Source of the DNA: an uncultured Sphingomonas sp.
GTDB lineage: Bacteria; Pseudomonadota; Alphaproteobacteria; Sphingomonadales; Sphingomonadaceae
DNA: 35,998 bases
NCBI GenBank assembly: GCA_902806275.1
Contig: CADCVY010000104.1
Location: 1 to 35,998, forward strand
Direction of reading: 5' to 3'
Below are positions 23,316 through 25,982 of this stretch, in pieces. Made by a program: the position numbers and the translations under genes. Under the pieces are notes generated by a model, which saw only the letters and a program-made list of their open reading frames with translations, was not told the DNA's origin and did not search any database. Numbering within the stretch: position 1 is the first letter of the stretch; each line of letters starts with the position of its first letter.

Positions 23316-23472
23316 GAGGAGCCGCAAAGCGCCCTTAGGGTCCGTCCGTTTGCGACTAGTAGCCTCGCTTACATAGCCGTGGCGGAGCAGGAATGTAAGT
23401 GCATGCCGCAGCCTAGACGCATTGGCGCTTGACCCGTAGGAGCGCGTGGGGCGCGTTCAGCAGGGAAACAAA

Positions 23473-24762
23473 GTGGCAAATGTGACGGTCATCGGCGCCC
23501 AATGGGGCGACGAAGGCAAGGGCAAGATCGTCGACTGGCTGGCCAGCCGCGCCGACATGGTGGTGCGCTTCCAGGGCGGCCACAATGCCGGTCACACGCT
23601 GGTGGTCGGCGAACAGACCTACAAACTATCCCTGTTGCCGAGCGGGATCGTGCGCGGCACGCCGTCTGTCATCGGCAACGGCGTCGTGCTCGACCCTTGG
23701 GCGCTCAAGGCCGAGATCGAGACGTTGTCGGGCCAGGGCGTGAAGGTCAGCCCCGAAGTGCTGATGATCGCCGAAACCTGCCCGCTGATCCTGCCGATCC
23801 ATCGCGACCTCGACGGCCTGCGCGAGGACGCGTCGGGCGCCGGGAAGATCGGCACCACGCGGCGCGGCATCGGCCCCGCATACGAGGACAAGGCCGGCCG
23901 CCGCGCCATCCGCGTCTGCGACCTAGAGCATCTCGACGAGCTTGATCCGCTGCTCGACCGTTTGTGCGCGCACCATGATGCCCTGCGGGCGGGCTTCGGC
24001 GAGCCGCCGGTCGACCGCGAGCGGCTGCGCCGCGACCTGGCGGAGATCGCCGACTTCGTCCTTCCCTTCGCCAGGCCCGTGTGGCGCGACCTCGACGTTG
24101 CGCTGCGCGGCGGCAAGCGCATCCTGTTCGAAGGCGCGCAGGGCGTGCTGCTCGACGTCGATCACGGCACCTACCCGTTCGTGACCTCGTCCAACACGGT
24201 TGCGGGCACCACCGGCAGCGGCAGCGGCATCGGCCCGTCGGGCGCCGGCTTCGTGCTCGGCATCGTCAAGGCGTATACAACCCGCGTTGGCTCCGGCCCC
24301 TTCCCGACCGAGCTCGAGGACGAGACCGGCCAGCGCCTGGGCGAGCGCGGACATGAATTCGGCACCGTCACCGGCCGCCGCCGCCGCTGCGGCTGGTTCG
24401 ACGCCGTGCTGGTGCGGCAGGCGCTCGCGGTGTCCGGCGTCACCGGCGTCGCCCTGACCAAGCTCGATGTACTCGACGGCTTCGGGACGGTGAAAATCTG
24501 CACCGGCTACCGCATCGGCGGCCGCGAGTTCGACTACCTGCCGCCGCACGCTGCCGACCAGGCTCGGGTGGAGCCGGTCTACCAGGAGGTCAAAGGCTGG
24601 GCCGGGTCGACCCGAGGTGCCCGCAGCTGGGCCGACCTCCCCGCCCGCGCGATCAAATACGTCCGCCGGGTCGAAGAATTGATCCGCTGCCCGGTCGCGC
24701 TGGTGAGTACCAGTCCGGAACGAGAGGATACGATCTTGGTGAGGGATCCGTTCGCCGGGTGA
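23473..24762 (+). CDS. purA: Adenylosuccinate synthetase
   Basis: A 429-residue GTP-dependent enzyme joining IMP and aspartate to adenylosuccinate, the first committed AMP step. The N terminus [18 protein letters not shown] contains the P-loop-like motif with the catalytic aspartate (D13), and GGHNAGHT supplies the catalytic histidine (H41). Further family blocks are [37 protein letters not shown] and [14 protein letters not shown]. The start is GTG at 23473 with AGGGA about 6 bases upstream; the longer frame from 23446 adds nine unrelated residues. The stop lies 2 bases before the palindromic repeat at 24765, which may double as its terminator. The call is certain. Confidence 0.97.
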
Positions 24763-24764
24763 CC

Positions 24765-24796
24765 GTCACTCCCGCGAAGGCGGGAGCCCATCTCCC
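24765..24796. repeat. Left copy of a palindromic repeat bounding the GIY-YIG gene
   Basis: A 32-base element, inverted relative to the one at 25137-25168, with 27 of 32 positions identical. In the minus-strand sense it begins GGGAGATGGG and contains the hairpin CTCCCGC-CTTC-GCGGGAG. It encodes the last codons and the stop of the GIY-YIG gene, and starts 2 bases after the purA stop. It resembles the dispersed REP-like sequences of many proteobacteria, whose translation reads as PAQAGTH-type peptides. Confidence 0.8.
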
Positions 24797-25125
24797 AACG
24801 TCTTCAACCGCATGGATGGCTGCATTTCGAACCCAAAATCGACTCTTAGAGCCCTCCAGTCTGCGTTCGATTCCTCAATCAACCGCACTTTCCAAGCGCG
24901 ATTCCATTTCTTGATTCGCTTCTCCCGAACGATCGCGGACTCCATCATTTCGTGCGCTTCGAACCAGACCAGCCGCTTAACGCCGTACTTGCTCGTGTAG
25001 CCGCAATGGAATTCTTCCCGATGCTTCCAGAGGCGACCCGGCAGGTCGCTCGTCACCCCTGTGTACAGCGTGCCGTTGCGGTGACTGGCGAGGATATAGA
25101 CGGCAGGTTCGCGACTTCGACGCAA
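24766..25125 (-). CDS. GIY-YIG domain endonuclease-like protein (UPF0213 type), bounded by inverted repeats
   Basis: A 119-residue protein with a single GIY-YIG nuclease domain. The GIY equivalent is VYI (9-11), the YIG equivalent YTG (21-23), followed by R31 in GRLWKH and the block EKRIKKW (68-74) that marks the UPF0213 group. The start is TTG at 25125, since no ATG or GTG lies before the domain. The C terminus (GDGLPPSRE and stop) is encoded by the left palindromic repeat, and the right copy begins 11 bases before the start, so repeat, gene and repeat form one compact unit of about 400 bases. It lies between purA and fabI. A role in moving or cutting such repeats is only a hypothesis. Confidence 0.8.
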   Translation of the reverse strand: MRRSREPAVYILASHRNGTLYTGVTSDLPGRLWKHREEFHCGYTSKYGVKRLVWFEAHEMMESAIVREKRIKKWNRAWKVRLIEESNADWRALRVDFGFEMQPSMRLKTLGDGLPPSRE

Positions 25126-25136
25126 TTCGAGGCCTC

Positions 25137-25168
25137 GGGAGATGGGTGCCCGCCTGCGCGGGCATGAC
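25137..25168. repeat. Right copy of the palindromic repeat bounding the GIY-YIG gene
   Basis: Inverted copy of 24765-24796. It begins GGGAGATGGG on the plus strand and holds the hairpin TGCCCGC-CTGC-GCGGGCA. Compared with the left copy, four of the five differing bases are paired with each other in the stem (CT/AG against TG/CA), so pairing is kept. It ends 10 bases before the fabI stop and may also terminate fabI. Confidence 0.8.
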
Positions 25169-25178
25169 GAGAGAAACC

Positions 25179-25982
25179 CTAAACCGTCGCAATATCCGGG
25201 GCGTCTTCGGCTTTCATGCCGACAACATTGTATCCCGCATCGACGTGGTGGATCTCGCCCGTGACACCGCTGGCGAGGTTTGACAGCAGGTAAAGTGCCG
25301 CCCCGCCGACATCCTCGATCGTGACATTCCGCCGCAGCGGCGAGTTATATTCGTTCCACTTCAGGATGTAGCGGAAATCGCCGATGCCGCTGGCCGCCAG
25401 CGTCTTAATCGGTCCCGCGGAGATGCCGTTGACGCGGATGCCCTCGGGCCCGAGGTCCATAGCGAGATATTTGACGCTGCTTTCGAGCGCTGCCTTGGCA
25501 ACGCCCATCACGTTGTAGTGCGGGATCACCTTTTCCGCGCCGTAGTAGGTCAGCGTCACGATCGAGCCACCCGGCTTCATCATCGCCCGTGCCCGCTGGG
25601 TAACCGCGACGAAGCTGTAGACCGAGATGTTCATGGTCATCAGGAAATTGTCGACGCTGGTGTCGACGAACTTGCCGCGCAGTTCGTTCTTGTCGGAATA
25701 GCCGATCGCGTGGACCAGGAAGTCCAGCTGCCCCCAGCGGTCGCGGAGCTGGGCAAAGGCCGAGTCCAGCGCGTCCAAGCTGCTGACGTCGCAATCGATC
25801 AGGAAGTCCGAACCAACCTGTTGGGCGAGCGGGCGGACGCGCTTCTCGAGCGACTCTCCCTGGTACGAGAAAGCGAGCTCCGCGCCCTGGTCGGCGAGTG
25901 CCCTGGCAATTCCCCACGCGAGCGAGCGATCGTTGGCGAGGCCCATGATCAGCCCCCGCTTGCCGTGCATCAATCCCGTCAA
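25179..25982 (-). CDS. fabI: Enoyl-[acyl-carrier-protein] reductase (NADH)
   Basis: A 267-residue short-chain dehydrogenase-type enzyme that reduces the enoyl-ACP double bond in the last step of each fatty acid elongation round. The N-terminal nucleotide motif GLANDRSLAWGIA (14-26) and the catalytic Tyr156 and Lys163 with spacing Y-x6-K (YNVMGVAK), preceded by TYYGAEK, define FabI. The start is TTG at 25982: it overlaps the stop of the YihY/BrkB gene in TTGA, and gives the N terminus MTGLM known from sphingomonad FabI. An ATG four codons later is the alternative. It is thus probably coupled to the upstream gene. It is the expected target of FabI inhibitors such as triclosan; no resistance change was judged. 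Confidence 0.95.
   Translation of the reverse strand: MTGLMHGKRGLIMGLANDRSLAWGIARALADQGAELAFSYQGESLEKRVRPLAQQVGSDFLIDCDVSSLDALDSAFAQLRDRWGQLDFLVHAIGYSDKNELRGKFVDTSVDNFLMTMNISVYSFVAVTQRARAMMKPGGSIVTLTYYGAEKVIPHYNVMGVAKAALESSVKYLAMDLGPEGIRVNGISAGPIKTLAASGIGDFRYILKWNEYNSPLRRNVTIEDVGGAALYLLSNLASGVTGEIHHVDAGYNVVGMKAEDAPDIATV

Follow-up and report, generated by a model that had tools for sequence, protein, structure and literature searches.

The window analysed here is a stretch of 35,998 nucleotides from an uncultured Sphingomonas sp., and it carries a small GIY-YIG nuclease gene bounded by two inverted REP-like repeats. This unit fills the gap between the convergent genes purA (adenylosuccinate synthase, positions 23446 to 24762, plus strand; NCBIfam equivalog, 620 bits) and fabI (enoyl-ACP reductase, 25179 to 25982, minus strand; NCBIfam equivalog, 487 bits). 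The nuclease gene (24766 to 25125, minus strand) has 119 codons and a TTG start, and was placed in clade A of the family by aligned relatives and its match to Pfam GIY-YIG (PF01541; 48.9 bits against a cut-off of 22.6, the sole Pfam match). One base separates the purA stop codon from the left REP (24764 to 24796, plus strand), which has a CGTC tag at its outer, left end, a stem CTCCCGC/GCGGGAG, the loop GAAG and a CCCA tail. The right REP (25137 to 25169, minus strand) has the CGTC tag at its outer, right end, the stem TGCCCGC/GCGGGCA, the loop GCAG and again a CCCA tail, and TCTCCC follows the tail in both. The two are thus oriented head to head with their tags pointing outward.

The original prediction, made from the letters of this DNA, was that two inverted repeats agreeing at 27 of 32 bases enclose the gene so tightly that one supplies its stop codon and the other ends 11 bases before its start. 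Direct reading and a repeat search, which returned a single inverted pair with arms at 24764-24816 and 25117-25169, confirm this arrangement, the identity being 28/33 when the first C is included. The TGA stop of the nuclease is the TGA within the TGACG end of the downstream, left REP, which also encodes the last nine residues of the protein, and 11 bases lie between the end of the upstream, right REP and the TTG start. Five differences distinguish the REPs, one in the loop (GAAG/GCAG) and four at the stem foot, and the latter are, as had been predicted, two compensated pairs (C-G to T-A and T-A to G-C). Both REPs fold into hairpins of 7 bp around a 4-base loop, with folding energies as DNA of −9.1 and −9.8 kcal/mol (z −2.76 and −3.01). 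A degenerate pattern of the repeat, with up to 3 mismatches, matches the 1.62 Mb draft genome (72% complete) at two places, both flanking the nuclease, and the reversed pattern gave 0 matches; the pair is therefore beyond chance. No amplification of the window REP past these two flanking copies was seen in this 72%-complete genome. A known RNA family or CRISPR was rejected as an explanation, since no Rfam model matched between 24600 and 25400 at its gathering score (best CRISPR-DR28, 22.2 bits against 35), and phage cargo was likewise rejected, with no match among 50,697 phage records.

The GIY-YIG superfamily is recognised by a PF01541 domain with conserved Tyr, Tyr, Arg, Glu and Asn, and domain and residues are all present in the window nuclease. 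Across 46 aligned proteins Y10, Y21, R31, H35, E68 and N87 are invariant. In a fold search with the predicted model (mean pLDDT 83.8) no solved structure passed E 0.001, the nearest being the UPF0213 protein 1zg2 (best, E 1.6e-3), the N-terminal nuclease domain of UvrC, and Slx1; a sequence search of solved chains gave two matches, both UPF0213 (1zg2 and 1ywl). The predicted fold is that of the small UPF0213 or YhbQ-YazA proteins, with Slx1 as a further neighbour. Slx1 and the related case of ANKLE1, both structure-selective GIY-YIG nucleases, are, to our knowledge, larger or partner-dependent eukaryotic enzymes of recombination and repair without such repeats.

The genome of the window (G000) holds two more GIY-YIG genes. 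On contig C59 (locus L001, around 1444-1810) lies a clade-B paralogue reading FWVYIL..DGSYYVGHTDDL, with the palindrome TTCGTCCTGAGCTTGTCGAAGGAC on both sides in inverted orientation; this palindrome differs from the window REP and lacks the CGTC...CCA form. The other gene, on contig C31, is truncated by the contig end, and a further stem-loop comes after it.

The association between nuclease and repeats was measured by a flank score, the best local match between the 300 bases preceding a gene and the 300 bases following it, the latter taken as their reverse complement, with a threshold of 18. Loci were taken best match first among the matches listed, a non-random sample, and duplicates (L055, L069, L183, L187, L190, L277 and L251) and loci with fewer than 100 bases on a side were left out before counting. 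Among the first 30 testable Sphingomonadales loci 25 scored at least 18, as against 1/115 control positions shifted by 900-1150 bases, and among the next 105 testable loci (among the matches listed) the figures were 77 and 11/395. In the merged set, treated by one method and comprising 204 unique loci after removal of the 7 duplicates, 141/180 testable unique clade-A loci were flanked by inverted repeats at a score of at least 18 compared with 14/520 offset controls, and 133/180 compared with 2/520 at a score of at least 22 (both among the matches listed). These counts support the suggestion of a layout like that of REPs with their RAYT transposases, with a GIY-YIG nuclease in the transposase's place, and they show that the repeats are not scattered randomly with respect to genes of this clade.

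In the same merged set, among the matches listed, flanking at this threshold was found for 7/8 clade-B loci, 7/9 unclassified loci and 0/1 YhbQ-like loci, while 41/189 testable clade-A or unclassified loci fell below it. Of 177 loci (among the matches listed), 90 had a hairpin tagged GTC on both flanks, 48 had one on a single flank and 39 had none, although other kinds of palindrome are present at some of these 39. Judged by their record titles, the flanked members of the matches listed came from alpha-, beta-, gamma- and deltaproteobacteria, with a single Nitrospira (L111) and a single Anaerolineae (L089), and those below the threshold included Planctomycetota (L038, L060), Myxococcota (L085) and the second Anaerolineae (L110). 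Of ten plasmid loci two had no flanking pair (L252, Rhizobium; L255, Photobacterium).

A separate control set of 30 YhbQ-like loci had only two flanked members, one a clade-B protein with its own palindromes (L238) and the other without palindromes (L230). A UPF0213/YhbQ housekeeping gene with chance repeats is rejected by this control. The UPF0213 label first given to the window gene also appears not to hold: YhbQ-like genes lack REP boundaries and differ from the REP-bounded clade A in sequence, as judged by reading, and the window protein had no match among NCBIfam models at E 0.01.

Repeat classes tend to be specific to individual nucleases. By motif, 111/179 loci had the same class on both sides (among the matches listed); the strand was guessed wrongly for a few loci (e.g. 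L083, L090), which merely swaps the two sides. With 24/179 loci left out of the class tests for want of a motif label, the nearest protein from another genome had the same class in 85/155 loci, compared with 35 on average and at most 53 when the labels were shuffled 2000 times, a comparison in which shared descent of related genomes partly remains. The comparison within genomes is free of that influence, and here labelled paralogue pairs had different repeat classes in 40/43 cases (among the matches listed). On the nuclease tree the raw count of class changes was 53 over 153 labelled rows.

CGTC-tagged REPs were defined by Di Nocera, De Gregorio and Rocco in 2013 (PMC3733652, cited throughout from those of its sections drawn on here) and include dRS3 of Neisseria and RPE-4 and RPE-6 of Rickettsia. 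The window REPs agree with this superfamily in the CGTC tag outside the stem at one end, in the loop of 4-5 bases (GAAG, GCAG) and the CCA tail (CCCA), and in the head-to-head pairing with tags outward that predominates there. They depart from its consensus, which has a stem of 8-9 bp with A-T nearly always at positions 1 and 2, in having 7 paired bases and A/C as the first pair. Since other REPs of the genus likewise end in ACCCA or GCCCA, we read the window copies as a stem-foot variant that falls short of full membership by the PMC3733652 consensus. In the sections drawn on, the survey describes a dedicated transposase as "apparently" absent for these REPs and reports no associated enzyme, and the string "giy" is absent from its main text. 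Transposase genes were examined there, and hypothetical proteins of fewer than 120 residues were omitted from the list of intragenic REPs (PMC3733652). Filters of this kind may have concealed a gene of about 100 residues. Two of the species named there carry this GIY-YIG gene between CGTC REPs, on plasmids of Novosphingobium aromaticivorans and Azospirillum lipoferum. Among the matches listed in the open-access literature, no earlier report linking GIY-YIG genes with REPs was found. In two records of Neisseria gonorrhoeae (L057 and L251) a clade-A gene lies between dRS3-type CGTC REPs, with no annotated feature at that place in the plasmid-collection record; such a partner enzyme may therefore exist for dRS3 as well.

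REP copy number follows the nuclease, with exceptions. In the phylum sample of 299 genomes, 25/38 of those with at least 5 class-1 REPs and 55/261 of the others had a strong match to the nuclease (E up to 1e-20; odds ratio 7.2, P = 6e-8). Within the genus, class-1 counts ranged from 0 to 52 in the 16 genomes with clade A and from 0 to 3 in 20/21 genomes without it (P = 4e-4), the exception being G009 with 57. Many copies per genome are usual for the CGTC superfamily; the counts reached 57 in the genus sample and, by a wider pattern, 712 in the phylum sample, in relatives of a genome that itself has two copies of the 32-base repeat. For the CTGAAC class, 19, 20, 8 and 2 copies were counted in the four genomes with a nuclease of that class, while among 33 others there were none in 21 and at most 9 (P = 0.001); nuclease class per genome was here judged from the fetched loci of 37 of 61 genomes. 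The window genome itself has nine CTGAAC-class REPs, and no nuclease of that class was seen in its 72%-complete assembly. G009 has no clade-A match and a clade-B nuclease only, and its class-1 REPs are possibly an orphan population. The 13/38 REP-rich genomes without a strong match, including G097 with 157 copies, imply that REPs outlive or dispense with the enzyme, or that drafts miss it.

The gap between purA and fabI had been thought to look like an insertion site. The NCBIfam equivalogs confirm the two flanking genes, and in some relatives these neighbours meet directly. In a search of 41 genomes from which 30 fabI loci were fetched, the nuclease adjoins fabI in the window genome and in 0/29 others, so it is not a gene fixed at this place around which repeats come and go. 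In 18/29 of the other loci purA is within reach of fabI, and empty sites are found there: the two stop codons overlap in G012 and G021, and gaps of 12 and 25 bases separate the genes in G007 and G003. In G030 a gap of 79 bases is occupied by a gene-less repeat dimer of the CCCCGGC class, the class that also surrounds that genome's own nuclease elsewhere (L012), and in G036 a dimer abutting fabI has the same class as the repeats around the nuclease of that genome (L203). Repeats of the G030 and G036 class begin GTTCCCC or GTCCCCC and are without the full CGTC tag. The remaining purA-fabI gaps hold other sequence.

Presence and absence at orthologous sites were seen at three further places. In Azospirillum lipoferum 4B the nuclease gene, flanked by a dimer to the left and another to the right, separates sufB from sufC, and it is absent from the five relatives fetched. 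Seven records of Sphingobium plasmids carry the gene between fnrL and a regulator; TomTYG64 and TomTYG74 (L263 and L264, near 950-990) have nothing at that junction but a fused palindrome tagged CGTC at each end, and TomTYG72 and TomTYG65 have neither the unit nor the palindrome. These fused palindromes look like scars of deletion between the two stems. At an amidohydrolase locus of Shinella the unit is present in three records and absent from one relative fetched. No target-site duplication was readable at purA-fabI, sufB-sufC or fnrL-regulator, the filled and empty spacers being too diverged. The idea of a small mobile element is supported by these patterns of presence and absence, and the unit has probably moved between sites, as judged from comparison of sequences.

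The stems covary throughout the family. For 73 unique class-1 repeats near nuclease genes, collected with a pattern that leaves three stem pairs free, Watson-Crick pairing was kept at 71, 68 and 70 of 73, compared with shuffle maxima of 65, 44 and 40, and at the inner pair, kept in 70/73, all four pair types occur. Among all 57 counted copies in G009 the two stem-foot pairs were kept in 52/57 and 49/57 (shuffle maxima 39 and 40). Of these copies 36 form 18 gene-less head-to-head dimers with a start-to-start spacing of 61-64 bases, and the partners share the same two stem-foot letters in 1/18 (expected 4.1, P = 0.06, not significant alone). In G369, where the 28 of 41 counted copies that stand in adjacent pairs were used, the same single stem-foot letter was shared in 2/14 dimers (expected 6.9, P = 0.013). 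Partners of gene-less dimers thus tend to differ at the stem foot, a heterodimer habit, and heterodimers have also been described for CGTC REPs (PMC3733652). The original prediction had taken the compensated changes in the window as evidence for selection on the hairpin. Covariation is seen throughout the family; the special status of the window's one REP pair is replaced by the heterodimer habit.

The layout recalls the REPtron, in which one enzyme gene is bounded by REPs, there GTAG REPs with a RAYT, or TnpA-REP, tyrosine transposase (PMC3733652, PMC6006769). In the sections of PMC6006769 drawn on here enzyme subclasses match REP types, and likewise the GIY-YIG unit has inverted REPs of its own class. 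The two systems differ in the tag, which is CGTC here and GTAG there, and in the enzyme, since the REPtron encodes an HUH/Y1 tyrosine transposase and the window an unrelated GIY-YIG nuclease with no HUH/Y1 match. We therefore consider it probable that the window holds a REPtron-like unit, in which a single-domain GIY-YIG clade is the dedicated, class-specific partner enzyme of the CGTC REP superfamily and acts on its hairpin.

The binding of the REP, the site of cleavage and the step of transposition or gene conversion are what we infer beyond these observations. Each nuclease would work on its own REP class. As TnpA-REP does with GTAG REPs, it would most likely recognise the hairpin in its folded form, either as a single strand or extruded from the duplex. 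A precedent for recognition of structure is offered by ANKLE1, which is reported to cut a cruciform junction (PMC10287932, in the part of that paper used here). The loop and the conserved stem core might be read as sequence and the stem foot as pairing only, the latter being a fit because the stem-foot pairs covary. The nuclease may nick at or near the CGTC tag, and a cut near the tag on both copies would free or mark the segment between the outward tags, which replication or recombination could then move or copy. With the nuclease gene inside, such a segment would be an autonomous unit; with a short gene-less spacer it would be a REP dimer mobilised in trans by a nuclease elsewhere, a dependence suggested by the G030 junction dimer, since this is class-matched. 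On balance it seems likely that a dedicated class-specific GIY-YIG nuclease renders CGTC REPs, dRS3 of Neisseria among them, mobile or self-maintaining, which would be a second chemistry of REP mobilisation, independent of RAYT, working on folded hairpins and on gene-less dimers in trans.

The 2013 survey that named the CGTC REPs, which are widespread in bacteria, left their mover open in the sections drawn on (PMC3733652), and a matched GIY-YIG partner would fill this role. One small enzyme and a hairpin of 27 bases would then allow the movement of CGTC REPs to be tested directly, and single genomes would offer natural pairs of enzyme and hairpin that differ in specificity. If true, REP-type repeats have gained dedicated enzymes twice, with unrelated folds converging on one layout.

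GIY-YIG enzymes include homing endonucleases, and the unit is polymorphic at the fixed junctions purA-fabI, sufB-sufC and, in Sphingobium, fnrL-regulator, both points in favour of a homing-like gene conversion. The nuclease would then make breaks at or near REP-less alleles or at REP hairpins and host recombination would copy the REP-bounded segment in, so that no transposition chemistry is called for and the gene is a free-standing homing endonuclease with the REP as its mark. REPs of the same classes are found scattered through a genome, frequently in gene-less dimers, which makes a single conserved target unlikely, and REP class tracks the nuclease and not the genome. We regard homing as a doubtful explanation of the unit.

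Gene-less dimers, one of them at the very purA-fabI junction of a relative, and REP-rich genomes without a strong nuclease match (the 13/38 noted above) could instead mean that some other host enzyme mobilises CGTC REPs and that the GIY-YIG gene is a frequent passenger, as in a composite transposon. A passenger should not be limited to particular GIY-YIG clades, as flanking is here, with the YhbQ-like relative unflanked; nor would a general mobiliser of REPs be expected to leave paralogues between different classes (40/43 pairs). Shifted positions in the same stretches, too, are rarely so bounded (14/520). We judge this account improbable. Least credible, and very improbable in our judgement, is that the hairpins serve to terminate transcription, to stabilise mRNA or to autoregulate a nuclease spread horizontally for defence or repair, with REP amplification incidental: mRNA can be affected by REPs at its 3' end (PMC3733652) and the nuclease stop codon lies inside the downstream REP in 16/101 loci that have both an open frame and such a REP, but a second REP stands upstream in inverted orientation, and the class recurs as the evenly spaced gene-less dimers (61-64 bases, 18 of them in G009), for which terminators have no need.

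Relatives of the nuclease may be overlooked by name. In a Sphingobium plasmid (L253, 1561-1800) a small nuclease is annotated "excinuclease ABC subunit C", which is misleading and may mask the family in surveys of REP-bearing genes. A cyanobacterial relative was seen on a plasmid of Planktothrix agardhii (L254, 1186-1470), with a type IIL restriction enzyme gene on one side and DISARM drmA on the other, and long inverted repeats without the CGTC form lie around the gene.
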